In this document: piece after piece, positions 5,170-21,122 of the stretch | How the letters are laid out: each line of letters begins with the position of its first letter | Position numbering within the stretch: position 1 is the stretch's first letter | IMG/VR virus record: IMGVR_UViG_3300028228_000165 | Location: 1 to 29,477 of that record | Reading direction: 5' to 3' (one strand) | Source: a virus | Length of the DNA: 29,477 bases | The notes under the pieces: model-generated | The model's input: the letters and a program-made list of their open reading frames with translations, nothing else | Told to the model about the DNA's origin: nothing | The model's database searches: none | Made by a program: the position numbers and the translations under genes

Positions 5170-5204
5170 GGAGGGGTCATTACCACGAAAGTGAGACCCC
5201 AATG
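5170..5204 (+). promoter_or_regulatory. Ribosome-binding site with possible spacer hairpin before the 2202-residue gene
   Basis: GGAGG at 5170-5174 is the only strong Shine-Dalgarno match, but it lies 27 bases from the ATG at 5202. Between them is a perfect 6-bp inverted repeat, GGGGTC (5173-5178) and GACCCC (5195-5200), with a 16-base loop. If the hairpin forms it would shorten the effective distance, although two Gs of the site are shared with the stem. A weaker alternative, GTGAG at 5191-5195, sits at normal spacing but in the loop and the start of the right arm. No T-run follows, so this is not a terminator. Confidence 0.45.
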
Positions 5205-8200: not shown

Positions 8201-11200
8201 CACTACGCAAGATTTATCTGCAGGGATTCCTAAGAGCTTTACAGCCGAAGAGACCGCCCTGATAACAGATGCGCATGCTAAGTTAGTTAAAGAGCGCGCT
8301 GACTTAGACGCTAAATACCCAGATGGAAAGTTTAGCGCTACGGACTCAAACGTAAAAGCCACTCCTGCAATGGAGCCCTACGCAAAGTTTGTAGAGGGAC
8401 TGCTAAAGCAGTTGGGGCTAAGCGATCAACGCATCATACTAATCGCCAGCGGAGAAACGCGCTCTAACCCATTAGCGTATGGCCTGACCCCCAGCATGGA
8501 GTGGTTTGATTCAAAACTAGGCGCAGAAACTCAGGGAACGCATCGTGCACGCCTTAGTAAGCCCGGGGTCAGCGGAATTACCCTTAACCCCTCCGTGCTA
8601 GCTACTGGCGATCGCCAGCTAATTATTGAAACTATTGCGCACGAGTTGGGGCACATGATCGAGCATCGTGCGTTGGCGTCTGCCTCTCCGGAGGTCCGCG
8701 CAGGTCTACAGAAAGCGCACGAAGCGTGGCTCCGCCAACAAAAAGGCAAGACCGCCAAAGAGTTAGTAGAAGCGCTACGTAACCGCAAGATGGCGGAGTC
8801 TGGCATTAACGCCATGTCGTTCGCGCAGCAAGCAGATTCGGTAGACACCCCCGCTAGCCGGGAAATGGAAATACATGTCGACTACCTCAAATCGTTTAGC
8901 GAGTGGTTTGCGGATAACGTATCCCGCTGGACGACTACAAACGAGAAACCAGTTGGGTTGGTCGAGAAGTTCTTTGCAGACCTAGCGAAGCAGTTACGCA
9001 AACTAGCTAGTATCGTTACCGGTAAGCGCTTTATGCCCGACCGCGCAGTAGCCAAGTTTCTGGACGAGATGGGGGCAATGGACTTCACTAGCGTTAACTC
9101 GGCGTTGAGCGGTCGAGTCGAAAACTTCGCTAGGAGTACGCCTATTGATGCTATCGTGGCGTCAAGTGAAATGGCTCAGGTGCCGCCCGGCCCAATGACG
9201 CGCGCTGTGAAAATGATGATCGAAGCCTTTAGCGCTACCGCAGGGATTGACTTTGTGGATAAGTTTCGCACGTTGACTGTTGACGCTGCTGCCTCCGCGG
9301 AACGACGCTTAAATGTATTGTTTGATGGGGCCGTACGCTCCTCCAAAGGTATCTTAAACCCGATGGGGCTATACCGCCAAGCTCAGGACACCAGCAAGCT
9401 CTTGCTGGATTGGTTCATTGACGGCGCCCTCGCGAAGGACAAACTGACCGGCACTTACCGTACTGTCAAAGGCGCGCACTCAATGAACGAGGTGCTGACT
9501 ATGGTGAAAGCATGGGGTACGGCCAACGGGTACAAGTTCGAAGAGGCATACAACACGCTCTCTAAAGTGTTTGAGGCTAAACGGCTGGACTCTCTACGTA
9601 AAGAAAACGTCATCCTTAAGAGTAACGGCGAGACCCAGTACGGCATAAACGCGTTATCCAAAAAACGCGAACAGCAGGGAGTTAGCAAAGATAAGCAAAT
9701 TGACGAGATGTTGGCGTTTGCTGAGAAACATAAGAAAGCGGTTGACGCGATTCAAACTGCTATGGACAGCGTTCGTTTCGGCCTAATCGACGGCATGGTA
9801 TCTACTGGCCGGTTATCTGCGGCGGACGGTGTTAACTGGAAGAAGAACTCCAACTACATTCCTTTTGAGCGCATGTCCGAGTACGACGACATGTTTCGTA
9901 CGCAAAAAAGTACGGGTAAGGGGATTTCTCAACTTAAAAAACTACCCGAGTTCCTTGGCTCAGAAACTCGTGAAGTCGGCAATACTTTCGACAACTTTGT
10001 AAAGACTTCTGGGTGGATGATTGAGCAGACTATAAAGCAAGACGCCAACCTTTCTACCCTTAAGATGCTGGAGCGCTTAGGTCAAGCTACTCGTCATCGG
10101 GCTAAAGGCCGCATATCAGACTCAAAACTCGTGCCCGCGTTCGACAAGGGCGAGAAGATTTACTACGAGTTGCCTTCTCGCTGGGATGTCATGGCGTTTA
10201 AAGACCTCGCACCGCCAAAAGGCGCGTTGGTTAACTTCCTGTCCAGCTTCTCTAACGTCCTGCGTACAACTATTACGTCCATGCCTCCGTTCGCGGTTCG
10301 ACAAGTTGTAAACGACATCCAGCGTGCGTTCGCTACGTCGGGCGTGGAGCAGCCTCTAAAACTCGTGTACCCTGCCCTGCGTAACTTTTTAGTAATTAGC
10401 GGAGCTGAGTTAATGGGTAGGCGCCATCCTTCCGTACGTGAGTTTGGAAGACTGGGCGTTATAGGTGATTTTGACTTTAACACTCGCGACCCGATGAGCT
10501 CTATCCTGTACGACCTTGGCTACCAGTCTCGCGGCAAAAGTAAAAAGAAGCGTTACACCGATTGGAAGGTATTACCCGTGCGTCTGACTTGGCGGTTCGT
10601 AAAGGCAATCTACGACCAGACCATAGCCGAGAAAGGTGACACCCTGCTGGCCACTACACGTTCACGCGAGTTCATTAACTTCCGTAGGCGTGGGGCCAGT
10701 AGTGTGATGCCCGCCTTAGCAAGCACCATTCCGTTCTTTAACGCGTACCTGCAGGGTATGGACGTATTGCTTCGCGCCGCCACAGGTAAATCTGCTGCTG
10801 CGGGACTAGATAAAGCCGCTGCTAAAAAGATGTTCTATGCGAAGGTAACGCAGATGGCCGCGTTCTCAACGCTATACGCCATCATGTCTTCTGGTGAAGA
10901 CTACTACGACGAGGCGGGCCTGCAAATTCGCCACAACAACTGGATGTTACCCGGCGGAATCAAGTTTCCGGTGCCAGAGGAATTGGGCGCAATCTTTAAG
11001 GTGCCTGCGGAGATGATGGTCGAGTACTTCATGCGTAACGGCACGAAAGAAGAGATGCAGGCATCGGATGCCACCTTTACTGCGCTAAAGTATGCGTTTG
11101 CTCAATACTCCCCAATCGGCGGGCGCATGACTCCAATCCCTGCCGCCATCAAGCCCGTCATTGAGGCGGTTACAAACTACTCGTTCTTTACAGGACGCGA

Positions 11201-11810
11201 ACTGGAGGGTGTCTACCAACGCAGTCAACTTCTGCCATCACAGCGTACACGTGGTAACACCAGCGAGCTGGCACAGGCAATATCAAAGTTCACGGAGACT
11301 CTCCTTGGAGAAAACAACGCCATCTCCCCCATCATGATCGACAACACACTGCAGGGTTACTTTGGCTCTGTGGCGGGCATAATCACGATGGGTACAGACC
11401 AGTTGATAAACTCTGACCGGATGGACCGCCCCCTGCAGAAATACTGGATGCTGAGTAACTTCCTATACGACCCAATTGGTAGCCGCCGCTTAGACGAGTT
11501 CTACGAGTTGCGCAGCAAGACGTTTGGGGTAAAAGGTACGCTGGATAAACTGGCCAAGGAAGACCTCGATGCCGCAGTGAAGTTCGCGAACGAGCACATA
11601 AACGAACTGTCGCTGGCGCAAGGTATTGGCTCGGCACTAGGACAACTCTCCGACACGCGCAGGTACAAGAACTACCTAAACTCAAATATGGCGGCGCAGT
11701 CGATGAGCCAAGACGAGCGTGCGACCAGTATGGAAGAGACTCGTCGTCTGGAGCAGGGGCTGGTCGGTTGGCTACGTGAAGTTCAGGCGGATGTGAACAA
11801 GGCTAAGTAA
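5202..11810 (+). CDS. 2202-residue polyvalent virion protein with zincin and LPD38-like region
   Basis: The largest gene of the window and the last of the late operon. The N-terminus (residues 1-35) is a small beta module (YVELLDGSYAEFADGTSDDQ) common at the start of phage internal proteins. Residues about 108-150 are Gly/Ala-rich with GxxxG spacing and may span or disturb a membrane; a second such stretch lies near 270-285. Residues about 330-950 are Ala/Pro/Glu/Lys-rich linker. A zinc metalloprotease motif HELGH is at 1147-1151, with E1234 in SEWFADN as a plausible third ligand. The C-terminal half (about 1300-2150) resembles the large polyvalent protein associated domain LPD38, including PFFNAYLQGMDVLLRA. 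Such proteins are thought to be packaged and ejected with the genome. Family assignment is from recognised motifs; the protease's target is unknown. Confidence 0.75.
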   Translation: MAIYVELLDGSYAEFADGTSDDQINAAVQEFSSRPPAQPEIPQEDREGFGAAAAASMARMEGERALAKGKAGLISEEEAMRVYNAQKAEADRLFTPTDDTFSFRNLKELAGGSLPYMAAPVAAGVAGSVAGSVIPGVGTALGGIGASFAASAAQFSGSNLARQIDEGKSFQEASGAKALAGALPMAALDTFALGKIPGVRQILGRAGIEVSEGAAAAIARKGVANAAIDYTTATGKALTYEGATEAGQQFIERLQAGLNIGDEAARGEYFDSFIGGAILGGAIAPAGRFLERRGAQKDVENKAAKEESETLQDQVLAGQAEEEAVIAAQDIDPDASVDDLLREQATLRNSGETDPVTRARLAALNAVIRPQLAGDVEALRAQTTAEQDVALQEQTAQDDNDARARASAFSTAEEDIFGNLVSPAAALSTEPEVEAASTPAAMRRSRQEAKDAGQIELPLRRTPAGRPTTTPIPETPSTTPLPEGALSLQDIKDTNVPMKTSKGWFEANVVGKTPEEVQALVTADPTLIVGPGQRAKVLREILAPIPPAFKEAPRDIILAEPGLTDGPAATEPTVSERATDESSLGLPDVAAPIADPTGEPAASEQSGVVSTGLPAGDGDAKPKRSRVRTLKPVRAEDIVAGNELNKWRTTRARVTTPGAMVGNTEVEAFLHAIDTQDGAGAQIALDDIARVLRSLPKSGDQAARAFVTYMNKQTDGGFDGPLNNAFNRIRETPSASAPIAETESQERTRRKAPVDKKYLEPVRITKDNRVVRSSQRLLVPMGDDVAKKYLMERGLNAAERKLDEIDAAPKRDTPQVGQQELDFTAPVQEAKKPKPVEAKKAEVKVEPKAKPAKVETKTKYRVTYDGKPATVTIVRTTEDPTKIDYVTVKVDGEKYAWVNLGKQGVVSDEKMLNNLIDTDIIDAIGALDSPIQKNSTGVEAAKPTVQPWMDDIASQFNGGARVVPVSDTLAVAVVQSAGTDNIIIGAKHKPTANDPNNFTYTTQDLSAGIPKSFTAEETALITDAHAKLVKERADLDAKYPDGKFSATDSNVKATPAMEPYAKFVEGLLKQLGLSDQRIILIASGETRSNPLAYGLTPSMEWFDSKLGAETQGTHRARLSKPGVSGITLNPSVLATGDRQLIIETIAHELGHMIEHRALASASPEVRAGLQKAHEAWLRQQKGKTAKELVEALRNRKMAESGINAMSFAQQADSVDTPASREMEIHVDYLKSFSEWFADNVSRWTTTNEKPVGLVEKFFADLAKQLRKLASIVTGKRFMPDRAVAKFLDEMGAMDFTSVNSALSGRVENFARSTPIDAIVASSEMAQVPPGPMTRAVKMMIEAFSATAGIDFVDKFRTLTVDAAASAERRLNVLFDGAVRSSKGILNPMGLYRQAQDTSKLLLDWFIDGALAKDKLTGTYRTVKGAHSMNEVLTMVKAWGTANGYKFEEAYNTLSKVFEAKRLDSLRKENVILKSNGETQYGINALSKKREQQGVSKDKQIDEMLAFAEKHKKAVDAIQTAMDSVRFGLIDGMVSTGRLSAADGVNWKKNSNYIPFERMSEYDDMFRTQKSTGKGISQLKKLPEFLGSETREVGNTFDNFVKTSGWMIEQTIKQDANLSTLKMLERLGQATRHRAKGRISDSKLVPAFDKGEKIYYELPSRWDVMAFKDLAPPKGALVNFLSSFSNVLRTTITSMPPFAVRQVVNDIQRAFATSGVEQPLKLVYPALRNFLVISGAELMGRRHPSVREFGRLGVIGDFDFNTRDPMSSILYDLGYQSRGKSKKKRYTDWKVLPVRLTWRFVKAIYDQTIAEKGDTLLATTRSREFINFRRRGASSVMPALASTIPFFNAYLQGMDVLLRAATGKSAAAGLDKAAAKKMFYAKVTQMAAFSTLYAIMSSGEDYYDEAGLQIRHNNWMLPGGIKFPVPEELGAIFKVPAEMMVEYFMRNGTKEEMQASDATFTALKYAFAQYSPIGGRMTPIPAAIKPVIEAVTNYSFFTGRELEGVYQRSQLLPSQRTRGNTSELAQAISKFTETLLGENNAISPIMIDNTLQGYFGSVAGIITMGTDQLINSDRMDRPLQKYWMLSNFLYDPIGSRRLDEFYELRSKTFGVKGTLDKLAKEDLDAAVKFANEHINELSLAQGIGSALGQLSDTRRYKNYLNSNMAAQSMSQDERATSMEETRRLEQGLVGWLREVQADVNKAK

Positions 11811-12081
11811 CTCGCCAGACGCGCACACCATAGAGTCCGTACTCACAACGATTGCGGGTCTCTATGCGTATGCGTAGCCATCTAGTGTACGGACGTAACG
11901 CCTTGTGTACGTCCTCTGCCTGCGCCGTTGTAGGTAAGAAAAAGGACGAGCCGTGTGTCAGTCTGTCCCACATTATGTAGAAGGTCACCCCAAGTAACGG
12001 GAACACGTTAATGTCCTCGCTGGGGATGGCAGGTTTCTTAAAGGTCTTGGTCTTCGTTAAACGCCGTCGATTCGATGCCAA
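11803..12081 (-). CDS. Small conserved-looking phage protein (TTG start)
   Basis: A 92-residue protein in the - strand operon, last gene before the convergent late operon. The start is TTG at 12081, supported by GGAG six bases upstream; no suitable ATG exists before mid-protein. It therefore overlaps the primase gene's end by 44 bases. The N-terminus is basic (RRRLTKTKTFKK). The C-terminal half (GSSFFLPTTAQAEDVHKALR, then YGVRVWRV) looks like a compact alpha/beta domain, similar in feel to small phage proteins encoded next to primases. No function can be assigned. Its stop (TAG, 11803-11805) overlaps the end of the convergent 2202-residue gene by 8 bases. Confidence 0.65.
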   Translation of the reverse strand: MASNRRRLTKTKTFKKPAIPSEDINVFPLLGVTFYIMWDRLTHGSSFFLPTTAQAEDVHKALRPYTRWLRIRIETRNRCEYGLYGVRVWRVT

Positions 12082-14878
12082 TTAGTGCTCCATCAAAAAT
12101 GTAACATCTCACGGGGATACCGCTCATACTGCCTAGCGCTCCGGCCCCAAGACGAGTCAGGTGTGACTTGCCCTCATGCTTGAGGTAGTTCAGCTTGGTC
12201 AGGTTCGCTATTGCCCGTTTAACATCCACTGAGCGGCTCGAGAAGAACTTGCGAAACTCCGCCACCGGTATAGCCAGCTCATTACTTGCTGGGTCGTACC
12301 GCATCTTTAACTCCCCCTTGGGCATCATGGCAGGTCTTTGCGGCGCGCCGCCTGCTGCAGAATACGGTGCTACCAATGCGTTGTTAATATTCGCATGGAT
12401 AAACTGAGCCAACGTTTCACGTGCTACAGCCGTAGGGTCGCTTACATCGGTACTGTGAACCAATTTACGCTGGGCAATCTCTACCTGCATGGACTGGTAG
12501 ACCCGCTTGATGTCAATGCTGTGCAGACCCAACCGCTGTGAGATGAGTGCGCCCGTAAAGCAAATCGTCAGTAAGCATGAGTAGAAACGGTCACGCTGGT
12601 CTAACTTAAACTCCCGGTCAACCTTCTTCTGCATGTCAGCCAGCATCTCCATCACTTTGTCCATATTCTGGATGATGTAGTCGATGTAGACAGGGCCCGC
12701 CACACCGTAGTTCGTGCTCAGCTTAGAGAACACTGCGTCGATTTCTTCTTTGCTAGCGCCCATATACACAGGTACATCCAACTGCAGGACGCGACGTAAC
12801 TCACCATCAGACATATTCTTGTTCTGCATCAGCATGTCGATTACTGACGAGTTAGAAGAGGTGATAGTAATGTTGCACCAAGTGGTTGTGTTCTGGCGCA
12901 GAGTGTTGGACTGCGCGTTCATACGGTTCTTACCGCGCCCATCCGTCACACCATAGGCCATGTCCGACACCATCTCGGGCGTGTCGTTGCTAATCTCGTC
13001 AATCGTAGCCACGATGCTATTCAACATACCGACCAAGTGGTTCTTAGATGCCGCGGTATCCTTTGGGCGAATCAACAAATCCTCGGGGGAACCGAAGATT
13101 GAGTTAGCCACCATCTGTGCCGTTGACTTACCCGCGCCAGACTCTGCGTTGTACAAGTGAACCAGCACGCCCTTAACAACTGGGTGGTTCAGCAGCTTCA
13201 ACAAAGGTGAACCAAACCCGCAGAACAACGTGAATGCATGCGCCTCTAGCCCAACTCGGTCGTAGAAGTTGGCAATGGTTTTCCACTCTTCTAGAGTACC
13301 GGTTGGCTTGAACGCTGCCGCCATTTGTCTCGTTCCACTTGCGGGGGGAGCCAGTTTTGTACCGCTTGCGGTGTACTCAAGGTCGCCAACAACAAACCCA
13401 AGTCTGTCAGAGGTCCAACCCATCTGGTGGCGAGTCCGGTTAGCCGCGTATTGTGACTGCAGGCGGCGCAGTGATGATGCAAAGTAGGCCATAAGCTCTT
13501 GTGTATGTTTTCCATAAGTAATAACGCCGTTGCGCACTAGCAAGTCACGCAAGGTGTCGGGCTTCATGATGTCCTTGACGGAGCTGTAGAACCGGCGTAA
13601 GCCGTCCTTGCGCATGTGCAGGTTGATGCCTACCATCTCGCCTTCGCCGTCCCCATTAGTATCCGAGTCGTAAAACCGTTCAGTTAGATACAGGTCATCT
13701 CGGTATATTTCAACCTCCGTCTCGGTCTCGCCGTCAGCGGCTTTAACCTTCTTGAACACACCACCGTTCACACCACGAAAATATGGGTGGCCGTACGAGG
13801 GGACGCTAATCTCTCTAGGCGCGTGGTCCTCATCTTCTGGTGCGGCAATAGTGTATTCACCTTCCGCAGTGAGCGGAGCTTCCGCAACAGTCTTACCCAG
13901 CATCAAAGGCGTACTGACGGTCTGCTTACAACCCTCACACCCAGCGCCATAGTTCTCTTTGTACCAGCTACACAGGTACGGACCTTTAGTCTCTGCTGCC
14001 TTCTCTTCCGTGGTCGTTGGCTCGTAGTCTGGGTGCGGACTAGACAACTTGTGGATAGCAATTACGCGGTCAGAGCAACGCGTAGCGATAGACAACGCGG
14101 CACGCCACAAAGGCTCCTCTAGCGTAGTTGACTCCCGCAGTGCCCGGTCGATCTGCGCACAGCCATTACCTTTCAGGCTGAGCTTGGCCAACTTCTTAAA
14201 CGAACACTCAGGGTAGTCCCCAGCCAGTTCGCGTGATGTGTCATCCATGCCGAACATCTTTGCTGCGGATAAATCCACAGGCGGCGTAGGCAGGAGGCCT
14301 AACATTGTCTCGACATCTACAGGCTGACCCTGTGAAATGATTTGTACCGGACGGCTCTGGCCGTTCTTAAAATTAGCAGTGCCCGGCAAACGCAAAATAC
14401 GAGCCGCGTCTGTAGTCACAGAAGGGTCGGCGTGCAAAGCTTGGGTGCTACATAACTGTTTCAGGGAACGGGCCATAGGCTTCCATTCTTCAACAGTCAC
14501 ATCGCGAGTCAGCGGCCAATATACGTGCAGGCCGCCACCAGAATTTACAAGAGTAGGCGTGGGTAATCCCGTTGCCGTAATAAATGCAGAGAGCGCTTTA
14601 GCGCCGTCCGCTTGGTCGATGTAGTCTTTCTTAGGTCCGCAATCAATATCAAGGAACAAAGCGCGAAGGAACTGGACATTGGGTACTTTACGCATGCCTT
14701 GGTCATCATAAGATGCCATTGCAAAATACGCGTCTACACCCGTAGAGTTATGCCCGTCCGCAACCGCCTCGACTTCCTCAAGGGAATCGTGAAACGTCTG
14801 GTGAACCACACCACCGCGAATACCAACGGCGCAATACCTGCCACTCGTAGGTAAGATGGAGCGAAGAAAATCTGTCAC
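12038..14878 (-). CDS. AEP-type primase fused to a P-loop helicase-like ATPase
   Basis: A protein of about 946 residues. The N-terminal domain has the three archaeo-eukaryotic primase motifs: LFLDIDCG (D77, D79), SGGGLHVYW (H118), and a later Asp in TTDAARILRLPGTANFK. Cys residues near 305-317 (LCSWYKENYGAGCEGC) may bind metal. A P-loop ATPase follows: AESGAGKST (Lys at about 584) and Walker B IVATIDEIS about 40 residues later, as in phage SF3/DUF927-like primase-helicases. The C-terminus looks like a winged-helix (about 875-925). It likely makes primers and unwinds DNA at the fork. The start is not certain: GTG at 14878 has AAAGAG five bases upstream and gives MTDFLRS; GTG at 14884 adds two residues. 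A terminator hairpin lies just upstream, so expression may depend on read-through. Confidence 0.85.
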   Translation of the reverse strand: MTDFLRSILPTSGRYCAVGIRGGVVHQTFHDSLEEVEAVADGHNSTGVDAYFAMASYDDQGMRKVPNVQFLRALFLDIDCGPKKDYIDQADGAKALSAFITATGLPTPTLVNSGGGLHVYWPLTRDVTVEEWKPMARSLKQLCSTQALHADPSVTTDAARILRLPGTANFKNGQSRPVQIISQGQPVDVETMLGLLPTPPVDLSAAKMFGMDDTSRELAGDYPECSFKKLAKLSLKGNGCAQIDRALRESTTLEEPLWRAALSIATRCSDRVIAIHKLSSPHPDYEPTTTEEKAAETKGPYLCSWYKENYGAGCEGCKQTVSTPLMLGKTVAEAPLTAEGEYTIAAPEDEDHAPREISVPSYGHPYFRGVNGGVFKKVKAADGETETEVEIYRDDLYLTERFYDSDTNGDGEGEMVGINLHMRKDGLRRFYSSVKDIMKPDTLRDLLVRNGVITYGKHTQELMAYFASSLRRLQSQYAANRTRHQMGWTSDRLGFVVGDLEYTASGTKLAPPASGTRQMAAAFKPTGTLEEWKTIANFYDRVGLEAHAFTLFCGFGSPLLKLLNHPVVKGVLVHLYNAESGAGKSTAQMVANSIFGSPEDLLIRPKDTAASKNHLVGMLNSIVATIDEISNDTPEMVSDMAYGVTDGRGKNRMNAQSNTLRQNTTTWCNITITSSNSSVIDMLMQNKNMSDGELRRVLQLDVPVYMGASKEEIDAVFSKLSTNYGVAGPVYIDYIIQNMDKVMEMLADMQKKVDREFKLDQRDRFYSCLLTICFTGALISQRLGLHSIDIKRVYQSMQVEIAQRKLVHSTDVSDPTAVARETLAQFIHANINNALVAPYSAAGGAPQRPAMMPKGELKMRYDPASNELAIPVAEFRKFFSSRSVDVKRAIANLTKLNYLKHEGKSHLTRLGAGALGSMSGIPVRCYIFDGALIGIESTAFNEDQDL

Positions 14879-14902
14879 ATGCACTCTTTCAGAAAAGAGG
14901 AT

Positions 14903-14929
14903 AAAAGGGTGGCACTAGGTGCCACCCTT
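14903..14929 (-). terminator. Intrinsic terminator or attenuator before the primase gene
   Basis: A perfect 11-bp inverted repeat (14905-14915 with 14919-14929, three-base loop). In the - strand direction it is followed by TTTTATCC, the shape of a Rho-independent terminator. It lies between the HTH gene stop (14939) and the primase start (14878/14884), about 20 bases from that start. On the + strand no T-run follows. It may separate strongly expressed HTH/SSB messages from the primase, or act as an attenuator. Confidence 0.75.
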
Positions 14930-14938
14930 CGGACGACA

Positions 14939-15187
14939 TCACTTGTAGTATCGGGAAACGAATTTCTCAATAGCCGCAAGGTGAAGACGTGAGCGTGGAG
15001 CGGAACTACCGGTCAGCCAGTTGTACACGGTCGCCCGAGTAACACCCAACTTATCTGCTACGAACATCACAGGATATTCTTTTAGTAGAAGTAGCGCCGC
15101 CAAGGTTTTTACGGGCTCGGTAAGAGCCGCACGTTCCACACGCCGCAAGAAGTGGACGCTATGTCCACGCCCTGAATTAATCTTCAT
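14939..15187 (-). CDS. Small helix-turn-helix DNA-binding protein
   Basis: An 82-residue protein with a clear HTH in its C-terminal half: PVMFVADKLGVTRATVYNWL (about residues 39-58), followed by a basic stretch and a helix, as in XRE-like or bacteriophage regulators. The N-terminus is basic and amphipathic. It starts at an ATG inside the end of the SSB-like gene (11-base overlap), without a strong Shine-Dalgarno, so translational coupling is likely. It probably represses or tunes phage transcription. A candidate target is the promoter-leader region at 16519-16628 of the same operon, which holds inverted repeats; this is inference. A terminator lies just after the gene. Confidence 0.75.
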   Translation of the reverse strand: MKINSGRGHSVHFLRRVERAALTEPVKTLAALLLLKEYPVMFVADKLGVTRATVYNWLTGSSAPRSRLHLAAIEKFVSRYYK

Positions 15188-16085
15188 CGTCAGTCAACCA
15201 CTGGCTCAACACGTCCTCTGCGGCTTTGCCAACTTTCGCTGGCTCTGCTTTTTGCTTTGGACGAATAACCGGCTCGTCTTCTACATCCTCCACTGGCTCT
15301 TCCACTTTAGCTTTCTTCGCTACTACTGGAGCTTGCGTGAACGCCGCTGGTAATGCGGGTGCATTGTCTTTCTTAGGAGCAAAGCGCAATTCCAATGCCG
15401 CGCGGACATCGTCAGTTGTACTCTGAGCCTTAGCGACATTCCACTCCTGCTCACTCAACGGGCGAACTGCACGGAACTTCAACACTGGCACTGCTTCGCT
15501 TGTATCAAAACGAGCTTCGGTAACAACGCCTGTGATTGGAATACCGTGACCGGACAAGAATTTACCGTACGCTTGTAGTGGCATCTTGTCGCCATCAGGA
15601 CGACCAAACAAAGACTTAGCCGGAACCGTCAGACGGTACACATTGCCACTGATGTCGTTTTCTAATGTCACCGCGATACGTTTGCTGAATCGGCATGCAC
15701 GCGCTTTACCTTCGCCTGAACCTTCGATGTTTTGCGGGCATGTACCGCAGTTAACACTTTGGCGAGACTCGGCAGCCACTTCTTCGTTGGGCACGATACC
15801 TTCAGAAGACCAGCATGATGGGCGGATGTCCTTGCCTTCTTCGTACTTCTCAGCGTAGAACGTACGCTGTGTACCTTTACTAGTCGCGATAATGACCATA
15901 GGCATCGAACGCTCTTCGTTCTGCCCGACTTGTTCACCACCAACCATCATGCGCCATACACCACCTCTAATGGAGATGCTCTTACCGCCGGAGTTACCAG
16001 CAAGTTCGCGGGTCGCCTCATCAGCGACGTTACGGAGGTAGTCAGGGATTACTGAACCGGACTGAAACAGACTAATATTACTCAT
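15177..16085 (-). CDS. Probable single-stranded DNA-binding protein
   Basis: A 302-residue protein. Residues about 35-240 look like one beta-rich domain (IRGGVWRMMVGGEQV, MVIIATSKGTQRTFYAEKY, VYRLTVPAKSLFG, GIPITGVVTEARFD). Cys residues C91, C113, C116 and C131 could bind zinc, as in T4 gp32. A flexible Pro/Lys/Glu-rich linker ends in LSQWLTDDED, the acidic tail typical of ssDNA-binding proteins that recruit partners. It sits between a small coiled-coil gene and the primase, consistent with a replication role. The start ATG at 16085 has AAAGGAAA upstream. The assignment rests on the tail, Cys pattern and context, not on a close family match. Confidence 0.55.
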   Translation of the reverse strand: MSNISLFQSGSVIPDYLRNVADEATRELAGNSGGKSISIRGGVWRMMVGGEQVGQNEERSMPMVIIATSKGTQRTFYAEKYEEGKDIRPSCWSSEGIVPNEEVAAESRQSVNCGTCPQNIEGSGEGKARACRFSKRIAVTLENDISGNVYRLTVPAKSLFGRPDGDKMPLQAYGKFLSGHGIPITGVVTEARFDTSEAVPVLKFRAVRPLSEQEWNVAKAQSTTDDVRAALELRFAPKKDNAPALPAAFTQAPVVAKKAKVEEPVEDVEDEPVIRPKQKAEPAKVGKAAEDVLSQWLTDDED

Positions 16086-16106
16086 GGTATTTCCTTTAAA
16101 CGAGTT

Positions 16107-16499
16107 TTAATTTGCACGCGAACGAGTGACCGTAACAGCATAACGTGAGACTACGTTAGTACCTTCGGGCAGCAAGTCTGGGCGCTGGTTTATGAATTCT
16201 GCGAAAGCGGTTTGGCTGAGTCGTCTCTCAAGAAGTTCGGGTACACCGTGCTCCTTAACAAACTCATACATCCGTCCCCAGTCGCTCGTGTCATAACGGG
16301 TTTTGACCGAACGCTTGAAAGAACCGAACTCGGTCTTCCCGCCATCTTGGCCAGTATCTTTACACAACTGCAGAAGCTCTTGCTCAATTACATCGAGCTG
16401 TACCTGCAGAACATCAATTATTTTTTTAGCTTCCGTTTCGGCTTCGCGCTTTGCGTCCCGAATCTTAACGTAGGCTTTTATCAGCTTCTGTACGTCCAT
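16107..16499 (-). CDS. Small coiled-coil protein, Gam-like in layout
   Basis: A 130-residue protein. The chosen ATG (16499) is preceded by AAGGAGAAAGAGA; a frame extension upstream to 16562 would run through the structured leader and is rejected. Residues 1-45 form a charged helix, probably coiled coil (MDVQKLIKAYVKIRDAKREA and the next 25). Residues 50-130 form a compact domain with YDTSDWGRMYEFVKEHGVPE, LLERRLS and a final strand. A long helix followed by such a domain is reminiscent of phage Mu Gam-like nuclease-inhibitor proteins, but the resemblance is weak. It is the first gene after the promoter at 16628-16601 and would be made with the SSB-like protein. Confidence 0.7.
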   Translation of the reverse strand: MDVQKLIKAYVKIRDAKREAETEAKKIIDVLQVQLDVIEQELLQLCKDTGQDGGKTEFGSFKRSVKTRYDTSDWGRMYEFVKEHGVPELLERRLSQTAFAEFINQRPDLLPEGTNVVSRYAVTVTRSRAN

Positions 16500-16518
16500 T
16501 CTCTTTCTCCTTATAGGT

Positions 16519-16593
16519 ATGAGCGGGGGCTCACATAAAGCAGTGTTTTCATCCACCAACACTACGGCGCTAACCCGTATCTCCCCCGCCCAT
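16519..16593 (-). promoter_or_regulatory. Structured 5' leader, predicted three-way junction
   Basis: In the - strand RNA, AUGGGCGGGGG (16593-16583) can pair with CCCCCGCUCAU (16529-16519) over 11 bp with one G-U. Inside are two hairpins: ACGG/CCGU with a 7-base loop, and AGUGUU/AACACU with a 10-base loop (16563-16558 with 16547-16542). The closed stem starts at the expected transcription start and ends 20 bases before the ATG, just before the AAGGAG. It could be a ligand-sensing or temperature-sensing leader, an mRNA-stabilising 5' stem, or an operator in DNA form. No known riboswitch class was recognised. Confidence 0.55.
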
Positions 16594-16600
16594 GAATCAA

Positions 16601-16628
16601 ATTATACACTGTCAATCCTTTGAGTCAA
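16601..16628 (-). promoter_or_regulatory. Sigma70-type promoter
   Basis: On the - strand, TTGACT (16628-16623) and TATAAT (16606-16601) are separated by 16 bases. The -10 is a perfect consensus match and the -35 matches five of six. Transcription would start near 16594 and produce the structured leader and the Gam-like, SSB-like and HTH genes. The -35 overlaps the end of the helicase gene (stop at 16625). Confidence 0.8.
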
Positions 16629-18181
16629 GGACTTTCTATTTCTTGTTTGTAAAGTTCTACAAGGTCCATGTGCATGTCGATCTTTTGCCCCAACATAACG
16701 TACATCCGCTTCTCTACAGGCGACCCTTGCAGGTGGGTGACTGTAACCTTATTCTTCTGCCCTTGGCGGTGTGCACGCGAATTTGCTTGTAAATAAATCT
16801 CGGTGGAGCTTACTGGACCCCACCACACTACTTGGTCAGCGCGAGTCAACGTGATACCGTGCGCAGTCGCTTGCGGAACCATTAACAAGATACGCACGTT
16901 GTCTTCGGTTTGAAAGTCCTTAATAATCTCGGCTCGGTTCGGTGCTGATATTCCCCCGTGGATTGTGGCTGATGTATACCCTGCCGCACGAATCTTATCT
17001 TCCACCAACGTCAACGCGTGGCGATACGGTATAAACACCAATACCTTCTGGTCGGTTTGGTCGATCACATCCACCAGCGCCTTGAATCGGTTAGCCACAT
17101 CAAACTCCACCACGTCCCTATCGTCCGTATACACCGCCCCTTGTGAAATCTGCAGCAGCTTGTTCAGCATCGACGCGGCGTTCACTGCGGTAATCTCAGC
17201 GCCAGCGGCTAGTGCCACCATTTGCTGCTTAATGTTTGTGTAGTACTTACTCTGCTGGGGGGTCAATGGTACATCTCTAACCGAGTACAACAGGTCAGGC
17301 AGGTCTAGGCACTCTTCCTTAGTGAACCGAATCGCTGGCTGTAAGGCTTTATGTACGACGTCCTTGGAGTCCTGCTTTGGCACCCACTTGTACTGCGTAA
17401 TCTTAACCATGACTTGATCCCGAAACTTTCCATAGAACATCGGCACGGTGCTGGGGTTAACCAGCTTGGCCAGACCATACGCATCAAGCGGTGACTGAGA
17501 GGCCGGTGTGCCCGTCATAAGCCACAACCTAGTAGTTGGGTCCGTCAGCGCCGCGATCGACTTCCAGCGGTCTGTCTGCACGTTCTTAATGGCGTTGGCT
17601 TCGTCCACAATAATCAAATCAAACCCGCCCGCCTTCAACTCCTTCTCGACTACCTTCACACCGTCAAAGTTGATGATGACAAATTCGTAGTCCTTGCTGA
17701 GGACTGCCTTGCGTTGCTCCCTACTGCCCTGCGCAATAGCACATGAGCGGTGCATGACAATCTTGAACAAGTCTGAGCGCCACGCGGTATCCATAATAGA
17801 TACAGGGCAGACAACCAGTACCCGTTTGATTAGCCCCTTGTTCATCAGGTAGTCGGCAGCCCATGCCGCCGCAGCGGTCTTACCTGTACCCGCCTCGTTA
17901 AACACAAAGCAGCGGGGGTGCGTGGCTAAGAAAACCGCGGTGTCCCTCTGGTGATTGAACGGGGTGTACATACCGGGCCACTTGTACCGTCCCAGAATGG
18001 GATGAGGTACATCTTTGATGCCGAGGTTACGCAGAATCCGCATCTCGTCCAAGTCCCAATGAACCATGACTTTTGATACGCCATCGTTCTCGTCAAGGAT
18101 GTGGCTCTTAGGTATGAGCGCAGTGATTTGTGACGCCTTCCGTGTATTAAACACGAGCGCCCTGTCTTGCAGGATTTCCAT
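16625..18181 (-). CDS. SNF2-family (SF2) helicase
   Basis: A 518-residue protein with the motifs in order: FNHQ entry motif (about 75-78), Walker A EAGTGKT (K near 101), VLVVCPVS, Walker B VDEAN (about 192-196), LMTGTP, KVLVFIPYRH starting the second RecA-like domain, and SRAHRQGQKN as motif VI. This is the SNF2/DEAD-like ATPase core common in phages, used for DNA remodelling, branch migration or replication restart. DEAN replaces the more usual DEAH/DEGH. The ATG at 18181 follows GGTGG; in-frame codons further upstream (to 18247) run through a terminator hairpin and are rejected. It has no gene overlap upstream, unlike most neighbours. Confidence 0.9.
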   Translation of the reverse strand: MEILQDRALVFNTRKASQITALIPKSHILDENDGVSKVMVHWDLDEMRILRNLGIKDVPHPILGRYKWPGMYTPFNHQRDTAVFLATHPRCFVFNEAGTGKTAAAAWAADYLMNKGLIKRVLVVCPVSIMDTAWRSDLFKIVMHRSCAIAQGSREQRKAVLSKDYEFVIINFDGVKVVEKELKAGGFDLIIVDEANAIKNVQTDRWKSIAALTDPTTRLWLMTGTPASQSPLDAYGLAKLVNPSTVPMFYGKFRDQVMVKITQYKWVPKQDSKDVVHKALQPAIRFTKEECLDLPDLLYSVRDVPLTPQQSKYYTNIKQQMVALAAGAEITAVNAASMLNKLLQISQGAVYTDDRDVVEFDVANRFKALVDVIDQTDQKVLVFIPYRHALTLVEDKIRAAGYTSATIHGGISAPNRAEIIKDFQTEDNVRILLMVPQATAHGITLTRADQVVWWGPVSSTEIYLQANSRAHRQGQKNKVTVTHLQGSPVEKRMYVMLGQKIDMHMDLVELYKQEIESP

Positions 18182-18205
18182 ATACCACCAATATAACAAA
18201 CACAC

Positions 18206-18234
18206 AAAAAGGGCCCGGAAGCGAACTTCCGGGC
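18206..18234 (-). terminator. Intrinsic terminator or attenuator before the helicase gene
   Basis: A perfect 9-bp stem (18213-18221 with 18226-18234) with a UUCG loop in the - strand RNA, followed by CC and TTTTT. It lies 25 bases upstream of the helicase ATG and after the HNH gene. No promoter is visible between the hairpin and the ATG, so the helicase message must come from read-through or processing. Confidence 0.75.
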
Positions 18235-18257
18235 TAAATTCCAACAAGGATAGAACC

Positions 18258-18276
18258 GTCGGCGGAGAAGGCCGAC
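18258..18276 (-). repeat. Short inverted repeat downstream of the HNH gene
   Basis: GTCGGC (18258-18263) and GCCGAC (18271-18276) form a perfect 6-bp stem with a 7-base loop. It lies 24 bases from the terminator-like hairpin in the same 126-base gap (18182-18307). No T-run follows on either strand. It may be part of a tandem attenuator or a protein-binding site. Nothing else is seen in this gap apart from the helicase ribosome-binding site. Confidence 0.4.
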
Positions 18277-18307
18277 AACTAATCTTACCCTACCTATCGC
18301 CGCAGCG

Positions 18308-18580
18308 TTAGGATTTTTTAGTTTTAATCGCCCCTGTTTTGGTACGGGGGAAACTCCGATTGACAGTCTTACTTACAGCGCGTAGGTTACTCGCGGCGGT
18401 GGAGCCGCCCTTAGACAACGGCTTCTTATGGTCTACGTCCATGCCGTCTCCCTTGGAGACTCGGCCTTCCTTCGTCAACTGACTGCGGGCAGCGTTTCGC
18501 TTAGCGCGATTCTTCTTCTGGTCCGGTGTGCCTTGGTACTTGTCGTACTCGGCACGGTAGTCTCTTTTAGCATTAGCCAT
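18308..18580 (-). CDS. Small HNH endonuclease
   Basis: A 90-residue protein. The core is MDVDHKKPLSKGGSTAASNL followed by RAVSKTVNRS, matching the HNH pattern in which the first His comes after Asp and the Ser-Lys-Gly-Gly loop leads to an Asn; the last position is Asn rather than His. The N-terminus is Lys/Arg-rich and helical, suited to DNA binding. The ATG at 18580 overlaps the previous stop by eight bases and has only a weak ribosome-binding site; TTG at 18598 is a less likely alternative start. Small HNH proteins in phages can assist packaging or act as homing or recombination nucleases; here it stands among replication genes. Confidence 0.8.
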   Translation of the reverse strand: MANAKRDYRAEYDKYQGTPDQKKNRAKRNAARSQLTKEGRVSKGDGMDVDHKKPLSKGGSTAASNLRAVSKTVNRSFPRTKTGAIKTKKS

Positions 18581-19232
18581 GGTTTTCACAAGATTCAACT
18601 GGGCAAAATTTGCACAGCGCGGAGGAGCGAGGATTCCATACCCCGTGCGTCAATGCTGCGTTGATACCGTCCGCTCTGCCTGCCCACTTTGACAGAATCT
18701 CAGGTAGTTCTGCCCTAGTGTACTTGGCTTTAATGACATCGCCAACTACCAGAAACAGCAGTGCCCCCTTGACAACTTGGACTTCCGGGTGGTGCACAAA
18801 CGTCATGGCCGCCATCAACTCCAACTGCCCCTTGTCTGCATACTTGCTTGACTTCCCGGTCTTGTAATCCACAACAAAAGCGGTCTCCTTAGCATCATCT
18901 ACCAACAGGTAGTCTGGGACACCTCGGAACCACGCATCAGCCGCAAAGAAGTCTGTGGGGCGAAAGTTAGCGGTAATAGCCATCTTGCGTTCGCAGTACA
19001 CGATTCCTTCCATATGAGCCAGCGGCTCGGCAAACTTCTGGAACTGTGCGAACTTGGGGGGTATCGCTACCCCGTCCTGCACGTAGTCCTCGAGTGCTTT
19101 GTGTACGGCAGTACCGTACAGCGTAGCGTCAGTGTCTTTCGATTTAAACTGTTTGAGAATCCGAACCGTATGAAACCTGCGAGGGCAGCCCTCAAAATCT
19201 TTGATTGAGGAATACGAGTGCACGAGTGCCAT
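18573..19232 (-). CDS. Cas4/RecB-like PD-(D/E)XK nuclease
   Basis: A 219-residue protein with the full pattern of the Cas4/AddB nuclease group. Motifs are SYSSIKDFEGCPRRF at the N-terminus, H44 in YGTAVHKALE, D107 in VPDYLLVD, D122 and K124 in VVDYKTGK, and Q136. Cys16, Cys207, Cys210 and Cys215 (LCKFCPVESC) are positioned for a 4Fe-4S cluster. Such phage enzymes resect DNA ends during recombination or replication. It is not near any CRISPR array. It follows the polymerase gene by 39 bases and overlaps the HNH gene. The AT-rich gap before it contains TATACT but no matching -35. Confidence 0.88.
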   Translation of the reverse strand: MALVHSYSSIKDFEGCPRRFHTVRILKQFKSKDTDATLYGTAVHKALEDYVQDGVAIPPKFAQFQKFAEPLAHMEGIVYCERKMAITANFRPTDFFAADAWFRGVPDYLLVDDAKETAFVVDYKTGKSSKYADKGQLELMAAMTFVHHPEVQVVKGALLFLVVGDVIKAKYTRAELPEILSKWAGRADGINAALTHGVWNPRSSALCKFCPVESCENHG

Positions 19233-19271
19233 AGAAACAACCTGTAGTTCTTTGAGTTTTATAGTATAACG

Positions 19272-21122
19272 CTATCCACCGTAGCTATCCCCTACATCTG
19301 ATTCACACCCAAGGGGTAATCCTTTGGCCCAGCTTGGCTGCCACGACATGCACGTCTCAATGTGCGCCTTCGCTTCTTCCTCCTCCTCGCGCTTAGCCAG
19401 CGCCCCCACCGAGTCGTGTACGGTTAACGCCACCTTATACCGCTGAGCAACACGCAGCATCTGCTCGGCCACTACGCAACGGGCTACTGCTTGGGTAAAG
19501 TTTTCCACGATTTTCCCGCCGTATATGTACGTCTTGATACCCTTGGACATATACGTCCACTGGTCGCGTCCTTTCTCCTCGTCAAACGCCTTCGCTAGAC
19601 CCGGGTACTGGACAAATAGCCCACTAGGCAACGTCAGTCCTGAGCCCGGCACCGCATTGATAACGCCCGGTACATCAACCTGAAACGTCTGCCCCATGCG
19701 TAGCGCCTCCAACGCCTCGTCCGCTTTGTACCATAACTCTTTTATGCGAAAGTTCGATGCGCGGTATGTATCAATCATGCGCTTGGCTTCTTCTAACTCG
19801 ACCGTAACCCCCGCCTGCGTCTTCAAGAACGCCTGTAGCTTGTGATGCCCAACGCCAAAACCGGCACCGAGAATAACCACCTTGCCTACCTGACGCTGCT
19901 GCGTATCTATCTTCTCCCGTGGAGTGTCGTAGATTGCCTCAGCCATAATTTTGTACACGTCTTCCTTGTTAGTAAACGCCTCAATCAAGTCTGTCTGGCC
20001 AGCTAGCCACGCCAAGGTACGAGCTTCAATCTGAGCCGAGTCGCAGTCAATAAATACATAGCCTTCGGGCGCTCTGATCGCCTGCTTAATCTTCTTCGCG
20101 TTAGCCCCACGGCTCGGCAGGTTCTGCAGGTTTATCTTATCCTGACCCGACCACCGCCCGGTGTGCGCACCGTAGTACCGCAATGGAACTGGGAACGCGC
20201 CTCGGTCAGCCATATCAATAAATCGCTTGGTACGTGTCTCCTCAATGGTGGACTTGTTACCTAAACGTGCCGCAACAAGGGACTGAATACGGTCATCCTC
20301 ATGCTCCGTCAACGCCTGAAACTCCTCGTCTGTCTTGGCGAACGCGTATGTTTGCTTACCTGTGGTCGGGCTGGTTTTCATTGGCGGCTCTACACCGTAG
20401 TTCTCCAGCAGTGTTGCAAACTTCGGGTTGGACATGAGCAACTTCTTAACGTCCTCGTCCTCATCCGCTTTCAGGATTCTACGCACACTATCCAGTAGCA
20501 ATTCCTTGCGCGCCAGCACGTCATCGTAGTGGTCTATCAAGTGCTCCTTATCTAACACCAACGCAGGTTCTGTAAACATACGCAGGGTTAAGTCGATGAG
20601 CTTTAGCTCCTTCTTGGGGAACCCCATCTCCATGTAGATGTTGAACAAGCCATACGTCAGCGACACATCATTGCAGCAGTAGGAACCGTACCTCGCCAGC
20701 TCCTTCGCAGTGAAGTCATCATAGTGTTTACCCAGCGCGTTCAGAACCTCGTCGCCTTTTACCCCGATACGAAACCGCTCTGCCTGTTTAGCTAGTGAGT
20801 GCGCCCGCTCATGTGGGTACAACGCGCGAGACATACCCAGTGTGTCCGCCCATGCCATCGGCTTGATGCCGTAACGCCACGCCATGATTGCCCCATCGAA
20901 CGCGGTGTTCTGCGCCACGACCATCGCATCAGACCAATCAATACTGGCAAGGTGGGCGGCTACTTCATGCTTGGGGAACCATACTGGCGGCTCGTTGTTA
21001 ATCTGTGTCGCTACCCCAATCGTCTCGAACTGGGAAGAGCGTACGTACTCTTCGGTTGTTAATTTGGTGAGACTAAACTGTCGGTCGTAGTACGTCTCAA
21101 AGTCAATCGTTATTAGCTTCAT
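19272..21122 (-). CDS. Family A DNA polymerase with 3'-5' exonuclease
   Basis: A 616-residue replicative polymerase. The N-terminal exonuclease has TIDFET (D7, E9), QNTAFDG (D76) and YGSYCCND (D152), so proofreading looks intact. There is no 5'-3' exonuclease domain, as usual for phage enzymes. Polymerase motif A is FIDCDSAQIEAR (catalytic D361), motif B is RQVGKVVILGAGFG (R410, K414), and motif C is VHDSVG (D570). In motif B the residue matching E. coli Phe762 is Leu418, and in motif C Ser571 replaces the common Glu. The ATG at 21122 overlaps the VRR-NUC gene by 20 bases with GAGAAG upstream, so the two are coupled. It would replicate the phage genome with the AEP primase-helicase. Confidence 0.95.
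   Translation of the reverse strand: MKLITIDFETYYDRQFSLTKLTTEEYVRSSQFETIGVATQINNEPPVWFPKHEVAAHLASIDWSDAMVVAQNTAFDGAIMAWRYGIKPMAWADTLGMSRALYPHERAHSLAKQAERFRIGVKGDEVLNALGKHYDDFTAKELARYGSYCCNDVSLTYGLFNIYMEMGFPKKELKLIDLTLRMFTEPALVLDKEHLIDHYDDVLARKELLLDSVRRILKADEDEDVKKLLMSNPKFATLLENYGVEPPMKTSPTTGKQTYAFAKTDEEFQALTEHEDDRIQSLVAARLGNKSTIEETRTKRFIDMADRGAFPVPLRYYGAHTGRWSGQDKINLQNLPSRGANAKKIKQAIRAPEGYVFIDCDSAQIEARTLAWLAGQTDLIEAFTNKEDVYKIMAEAIYDTPREKIDTQQRQVGKVVILGAGFGVGHHKLQAFLKTQAGVTVELEEAKRMIDTYRASNFRIKELWYKADEALEALRMGQTFQVDVPGVINAVPGSGLTLPSGLFVQYPGLAKAFDEEKGRDQWTYMSKGIKTYIYGGKIVENFTQAVARCVVAEQMLRVAQRYKVALTVHDSVGALAKREEEEEAKAHIETCMSWQPSWAKGLPLGCESDVGDSYGG

Follow-up and report, generated by a model that had tools for sequence, protein, structure and literature searches.

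The window, by which we mean the whole 29,477-nucleotide stretch of viral DNA that was analyzed (IMG/VR record IMGVR_UViG_3300028228_000165), contains a short operon on its minus strand. The first gene (16107–16499, minus strand) encodes a 130-amino-acid protein of phrog_13900. We call it Gam-like, although its match to Mu_Gam/Gp157 in Pfam is weak (21.5 bits, versus a cut-off of 27), and the PHROG name for the family is "minor head protein." The second gene (15177–16085, minus strand) encodes a conserved protein of 302 amino acids, which was our query for collecting relatives. This protein has no match in Pfam and matches only PHROGs of unknown function, so the label "SSB-like," which it had received in a preliminary description of this DNA, is unsupported. 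The third gene (14939–15187, minus strand) encodes an 82-amino-acid HTH protein with a weak match to a DNA-binding or repressor PHROG; the preliminary label for this gene (HTH-like) held up, and the Gam-like label falls below the cut-off.

After the HTH gene, and before a primase-like gene, a hairpin scan found a terminator-like hairpin (14904–14930, minus strand). In the window's own lineage this hairpin has a poor U-run, and many relatives have stronger hairpins in similar positions. Among the 39 related loci listed (identical results left out), 24 have a terminator-like hairpin of at least 10 bp after the third gene, so the transcription unit in those 24 loci is probably three genes. Elsewhere in the window, the plus strand encodes a protein of 2,202 amino acids that contains the large polyvalent protein domain LPD38 (5202–11810).

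Upstream of the Gam-like gene is the promoter TTGACT-N16-TATAAT, which matches the consensus at 11 of 12 positions (16601–16628, minus strand) and was identified by a promoter scan and by direct reading. The −35 box is at 16628–16623 and the −10 box is at 16606–16601, with a 16-nt spacer. It ranks best of the four promoter-like sites in positions 12000–20000, a region in which shuffled sequences average 6.9 sites with at least 9 of 12 matches. From the position of the promoter, transcription is predicted to begin at 16594 or 16593. A stem of 11 bp, P1, has its first paired base at this predicted +1/+2: the 5' arm (AUGGGCGGGGG, 16593–16583, minus strand) pairs with the 3' arm (CCCCCGCUCAU, 16529–16519, minus strand), including one G·U pair. 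Both arms are evident from direct reading and supported by covariation, and the 5' arm is also supported by an arm-swap control. The 3' arm ends 6 nt before the ribosome-binding site AAGGAG (16507–16512, minus strand, by direct reading), which lies outside the element, and 19 nt before the ATG (16499). The preliminary description had noted a strong promoter with its start almost exactly at a stem, and the stem's 3' arm just before AAGGAG, and we agree on both points.

When folded as a single sequence, the window's leader is only moderately above chance (z = −2.28, with 4 of 200 shuffles equally good). Its minimum-energy fold (−32.2 kcal/mol) differs from the structure that emerges from comparison with other copies. 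In the comparative structure, P1 encloses a hairpin P2, a hypervariable insert, and a hairpin P4. P2 (UACGG-GUUAGCG-CCGUA, 16563–16579, minus strand) is supported by comparison, covariation, and a compensation test; its arms are at 16579–16575 and 16567–16563, and its loop (16574–16568) is nearly invariant among the copies found. The insert (GTGTTGGTGGATGAAAA, 16546–16562, minus strand) is 17 nt in the window, and comparisons of inserts and flanks show its hypervariability. P4 (CAC-UGCUUUAU-GUG, 16532–16545, minus strand) is supported by comparison and covariation; its arms are at 16545–16543 and 16534–16532, and its loop (16542–16535) is constant but for one C/U position, a constancy that is partly set by the search pattern itself. 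In the single-sequence prediction, the probability of P4 is 0.0 and that of P2 is 0.11–0.28, so the second hairpin of that fold is not the conserved one. In other words, of the three-way junction proposed previously, the outer 11-bp stem stands, and the two inner hairpins are replaced by P2 and P4.

The architecture of the family is P1, P2 (GG-GUUAGCG-CC), a variable insert, and P4 (CNC-UGCUUYAU-GNG). We scanned viral contigs for the two conserved blocks and obtained at least 120 stretches, and the virus contigs contain at least 138 distinct copies of the pattern. All of the collected loci together contain at least 147 distinct copies, 138 in virus loci and 9 in bacterial loci; one of the bacterial copies (L206) is a chance match according to the covariance model. 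Because the search pattern fixed both blocks, that is, most of both loops and one or both sides of the inner pairs, these positions could not reveal change. Other pairs do change. Across 128 copies, the middle pair of P4 is always paired (98 A-U, 15 G-C, 12 U-A, and 3 C-G). The third pair of P2 is standard in 127 of 128 copies, with three main types (95 C-G, 21 A-U, and 10 U-A, besides one U-G and one mismatch), and at the fourth pair of P2, 123 of 128 copies have a standard pair, of six types.

We aligned 70 sequences out of 101 de-duplicated copies. Standard pairs make up 78.6% of this alignment, as compared to 59.3% after shuffling and at most 42.7% with slid partners. The covariation score is 0.500, versus 0.175 for shuffled alignments (0/500) and at most 0.220 for slid partners. 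P1, P2, and P4 all covary strongly. For P1, the mean pairing score is 27.7 with the true arms and 16.3 with swapped arms. Also, as a prospective test, a search for P2 blocks whose last base is not C found six stretches (some of them closely related to one another), and in all six the partner was compensated, giving C-G pairs in four and U-A pairs in two. One copy of a tandem pair from Achromobacter dolens (L217) has the same compensation in P2. A pattern that demanded changes at one would-be loop-loop (kissing) pair found no stretches, which left no variation to probe there.

The window itself matches our covariance model, R1, with 70.9 bits (E = 1.1e-22; full match at 16510–16599, minus strand), and no second match was found in the window at E ≤ 10. 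This score is not independent, as a locus with an identical leader (L001) is in the seed alignment, but the window has the family pattern and the pairs by direct reading as well. We consider it close to certain that the fold and the RNA family are real. The family has no counterpart in Rfam that we could detect: a search of the whole window against Rfam 15 gave no match that reached a family's gathering threshold, the sole match to the leader alone was a CRISPR repeat with E = 4.8 (below threshold), and 16 related loci gave no matches. A literature search with the sequence blocks and related topics, which mostly did not cover subscription papers, found no description of the family, although one may be in print. 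As far as we can see, this widespread family of viral RNAs is undescribed. The suggestion that a folded RNA of no recognized class extends from the predicted +1 is thus strongly supported by the comparison and by the absence of an Rfam match.

To collect relatives, we fetched viral contigs with the 302-amino-acid gene, kept the best 80 of 329 stretches, and classified the leaders of the operon's first gene with a simple word search. Of the 80 loci, 13 carry an element resembling that of the window (8 distinct sequences), and 48 have a short leader without it (one of those listed has a small hairpin). Two leaders contain a different structured element, seven are long in some other way (of the two listed, one is a plain leader whose start is later and the other is a simple hairpin), seven loci lack such a promoter, and three are cut off. 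We also ran the covariance model on 75 of these loci (five near-duplicate carriers were left out), and the 8 matches were all to known carriers. The element thus lies where transcription begins in a leader that is otherwise plain, and its presence is optional. In other leaders of the same operon (L078–L080 and L063–L064), simple short hairpins at or near +1 replace the structured element.

We examined the promoter spacing in 132 copies, of which 33 have the best promoter scores and 99 have weaker ones. The first paired base of P1 is 6–7 nt past the −10 box in 25 of the 33, and several of the remaining best-promoter copies have an over-extended P1. The same spacing is found in 14 of the 99 copies with weaker scores. 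All 25 of the copies with a precise +1 precede genes of the Gam-like cluster, so these cases are not independent: they represent one gene setting in several phage lineages. In the leaders of Gam-like genes, the comparisons place the start of the element at the predicted +1.

More broadly, a gene on the same strand was called within 200 nt downstream for 76 of 136 copies. Gam-like genes are the commonest neighbor (31 of 76); the other families account for 9 genes or fewer each and include HTH regulators, and 22 of the 76 genes are single. The start codon is 22–52 nt after P4 in 55 of 136 copies. By a simple rule applied to 147 copies, 54 precede a ribosome site and a reading frame within 75 nt and 93 do not. 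Some copies seem to stand alone. In L225, for instance, a −10 box is followed by the element at +1, with TTTTTTT immediately after P1; L210 combines a −10 box with a hairpin after the element; and in L488 and L489 the element is followed by a terminator-like hairpin and a T-run. Other copies are in non-coding arrays or within other stems. Where neighboring modules are at most 1.5 kb apart, their strands agree in 175 of 175 pairs (overlapping matches of a single module contribute to this count).

The element usually occurs once per record. When we searched whole virus records, which may be fragments, all 30 of the records known to hold the element had exactly one copy. Among 28 records from the related-locus set, 27 lack the element and have other leaders, and the other is a known carrier with one copy. 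Two copies are found in a few other loci (L104, L119, L173, L191, L195, L144, and Achromobacter).

Only 8 of 36 pattern matches in bacteria score above 40 bits, and the rest are mostly chance. By title, these 8 contigs are from a beta proteobacterium, a Burkholderiales bacterium, Achromobacter dolens, Comamonas, Variovorax, Bordetella trematum, Curvibacter, and an Armatimonadetes bin. In a sample of 399 genomes from the order that includes Achromobacter (centre included), 2 genomes have a match above 40 bits and 3 have a marginal one at 23–25 bits. Two bacterial loci have a phage-type gene: a primase-helicase (L210) and DNA polymerase A (L205). The Curvibacter copy (L215:3276–3339, minus strand) is between gyrA and a divergent gene for a 781-amino-acid protein that has no match in Pfam. 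Searching INPHARED with blastn gave only short, chance-like matches for two element copies and no match for 701 bases around the Achromobacter copies. An association with tRNAs was considered and dropped, as ARAGORN found no tRNAs in L103 and found them in just 4 of the 38 loci given to it. A gene with an acidic tail is upstream of the element in 10 of 137 copies, but some of these are not SSB-like, and they are too few to indicate a link to SSB.

The insert between P2 and P4 has a median length of 31 nt. We compared 114 pairs of copies whose 300-nt flanks are both more than 72% identical (means of 84% and 85%). The non-identical inserts in these pairs average 61% identity, the P1 arms average 81% and 76%, and arbitrary pairs of inserts are 51% identical. 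These pairs are not independent: without rounding, there are 118 pairs from 49 copies in 14 groups, and a single group of 14 copies supplies 86 of the 118. The insert is less identical than both flanks by at least 0.10 in 9 of the 14 groups and slightly less identical in 1, and it is not below both flanks in the other 4. For example, L086 and L122 have flanks that are 94% and 96% identical and inserts that are 48% identical; for L001 and L005, the flanks are 97% and 89% identical and the inserts are 65% identical. Conversely, 85 pairs have inserts with an identity of 80% or more, and for 44 of these pairs neither flank (up to 200 nt) has a 12-mer in common. The inserts of L105 and L147 are identical at 39 of 39 positions between unrelated flanks, and the leader of L086 and the array of L119 give another such case. 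Divergence between conserved flanks, together with recurrence in unrelated flanks, indicates that the turnover of inserts is often rapid and that they move between unrelated settings by exchange.

We looked for targets of the insert. The longest antisense match to its own contig averages 8.86 nt, versus 8.71 nt for controls (91 copies, from loci of 7 kb or more), and no antisense match was found in the nearby flanks (137 copies), so we rejected the idea that the insert is antisense to its own phage. Pairing of the insert with the ribosome site that follows averages 4.08 nt, versus 4.23 nt when swapped, and 180 of 200 swaps were as good or better; a few inserts do match the following ribosome site (9 nt in L131). 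CTCCT occurs in 19 of 139 distinct inserts (2.6 expected). After clustering, the resemblance to the anti-SD tail of 16S rRNA is weak: 6 of 52 clusters have it, as compared to 1.6 expected, 2 in the reversed control, and 6 in the best of 200 shuffles. We retain this resemblance as a possible lead.

In some phages, two more RNA modules, also unclassified, sit next to the element. The second module (GGGAAAGCGGATGCTG...GCAGCGAGTACC) is found at L039:133–195, in the leader of L077, at L103:824–897, and elsewhere. It occurs in at least 120 viral stretches, with 117 distinct copies in the collected loci, and it can take the element's place at +1 of the same operon. It has an AGUA/GAA signature that we take to be sarcin-ricin-like, and the copy in L103 had no match in Rfam. 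The gene that precedes it encodes an SSB-type acidic tail in 21 of 114 copies. The third module (ACGCATGGGGAYTG...CARTCCCCAGCCGT) is found at L103:1114–1173, at L127:8117–8195, in L383 (two copies), and elsewhere, again in at least 120 viral stretches. It often lies immediately upstream of the element, on the strand that the element occupies. With one strict pattern, 5 of the 25 element-bearing records contain this module, as compared to 0 of 17 that lack the element; a looser pattern finds more.

Also, a long stretch of several hundred nt that looks non-coding bears the element as a side branch, and in some cases it includes a stem formed by AGCCGTTA...TAACGGCTTTTTT. Examples are at about 8735–9305 in L104 (minus strand), 3150–3720 in L173, and 3670–4070 in L119. 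The stretch in L104 had no match above chance in Rfam. Beside the array in L104 is a sub-threshold match to Betaproteobacteria_toxic_sRNA (9524–9596, minus strand; 21.8 bits, with a cut-off of 50), and by eye, L173 contains a similar sequence.

What might the element do? Comparative analysis shows the fold and its conservation, the usual single copy per record, the optional presence, and the recurrence of inserts. We favor the view that the leader is a small phage RNA that is produced as the 5'-terminal part of an early message and acts mainly as an RNA in its own right, in trans, but we give this role somewhat less than an even chance. The usual single copy, the variety of settings, the stand-alone forms, the constant loops, and the changeable insert all suggest an RNA that acts as itself. 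A strong early promoter with the element at the first base would yield an abundant RNA with an intact 5' end. This RNA would be released by cleavage after P1, or else ended by a terminator in the stand-alone copies. A partner from the host or the phage would recognize the constant loops as a scaffold, and the insert would vary according to the target or the host. At +1, P1 might also shield the 5' end of the message. Because all 25 of the precise +1 cases precede Gam-like genes, the case for action in trans is slightly weaker than it would otherwise be.

The main rival is protection of the 5' end in cis, which we consider possible but less probable: the stem would seal the end of the early message against removal of pyrophosphate and entry of RNase E, and the core would be merely a compact fold. 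The start at +1 suits this explanation equally well, since 25 of the 33 best-promoter copies have a P1 that starts at the predicted +1, in each case ahead of a Gam-like gene. Also, the ribosome site in the window is left free, and the same locus can have at +1 the element, another structure (L039 and L077), a plain hairpin (L078–L080), or nothing. On the other hand, a generic cap would not need constant loops, many copies are in arrays or other stems, one copy per record would be odd for a general stabilizer, and the element is missing from the short leaders of 48 of the 80 relatives. The preliminary description had proposed that the leader may control the Gam-like, SSB-like, and HTH genes in cis. 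Those 48 short leaders argue against this, as do the copies before other genes or before no callable gene; also, ribosome-site sequestration does not exceed the swapped controls, and we found no terminator switch linked to the element. In its favor, 31 of the 76 called downstream genes are Gam-like, a frequency that speaks for some role in cis, as the setting is not random. A riboswitch that senses a metabolite or a protein and controls translation or termination of the downstream genes seems quite unlikely. The element's conserved junction and loops, combined with an arm that varies, do look aptamer-like, and the element is in a leader whose downstream gene is frequently Gam-like. But it has no Rfam match, the insert is no more complementary to the ribosome site than swapped inserts are, the short distance from P4 to the start codon in 55 of 136 copies leaves little room for a terminator, and the remaining downstream genes are unrelated or were not found. 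The pairing comparison led us to reject a riboswitch that sequesters the ribosome site.

Antitermination in cis, with the RNA acting on RNA polymerase to override downstream terminators as put sites do, is very improbable. It would fit with early operons, with the position at +1, and with the terminator-like hairpin downstream in the window. However, most of the 24 loci with hairpins of at least 10 bp lack the element. L001–L006 have the hairpin after the third gene, but it is absent or below that strength in carriers L061, L072, L074, and L076, and stand-alone copies precede terminator-like sequence. Because the terminator-like hairpins at this locus are independent of the element, we rejected put-like antitermination. 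We also disfavor a feature of the DNA itself, either an operator for the HTH protein (the alternative in the preliminary description) or a small mobile palindrome with no role as RNA, and give it very little chance. Optional presence and exchange between contexts would be expected of such a feature. But all three stems have compensatory changes while the loops are constant, neighboring modules share a strand, and leaders of Gam-like genes start at +1. As for the operator, relatives do not share a conserved palindrome: the stems change freely in sequence from one copy to the next yet remain paired, and a DNA repeat bound by a protein would not need to preserve pairing as its sequence changes.

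Several known systems resemble the element in part. The put sites of phage HK022 are RNAs that act on RNA polymerase in cis to override terminators. Like them, the element is a structured RNA near early promoters, but it is not tied to downstream terminators, and it is also found in arrays and before terminator-like sequence. The C4 antisense RNA of P1/P7-type phages and the CI RNA of P4 are structured RNAs encoded in phage leaders. The element is likewise leader-encoded and possibly carries a variable specificity, but it has no Rfam match, and we found no complementary target in its own contig or nearby flanks. The 5' stem of the ompA mRNA is a 5'-terminal stabilizing stem-loop that lies at or within a few nt of +1, and in the window, P1 begins at 16593, with the start predicted from the promoter; the ribosome site is free as well. 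In contrast to the ompA stem, the element has constant loops and a three-part junction, and it occurs beyond the 5' ends of mRNAs. Work on stabilization by the ompA stem is among that cited in PMC3997798. The small RNAs ipeX and DicF, as treated in the review PMC12197685, come from phages or prophages and are processed from longer transcripts. To that extent, the element is similar, as a phage RNA from a longer message, and if it acts in trans its action would be similar too. It differs from small RNAs of this type, as they are presented there, by its conserved junction fold, its usual single copy, and its exchangeable hypervariable insert.

Phage-encoded structured RNAs are a known kind, but as far as we can see, this family, with its cassette-like insert, is new. 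It has very strong comparative support (at least 138 copies) and no Rfam match. A constant frame, an exchanged hypervariable insert, a usual single copy, and an optional position make an unusual combination. We speculate, as a long shot, that the RNA is a scaffold with a constant frame and a swapped specificity segment: a programmable or host-tuned weapon or shield with a dedicated partner. If so, there would usually be one cassette per genome, which would be passed between phages by recombination via the short constant sequences that flank it. The family raises a testable question: what does a phage gain from swapping the insert?
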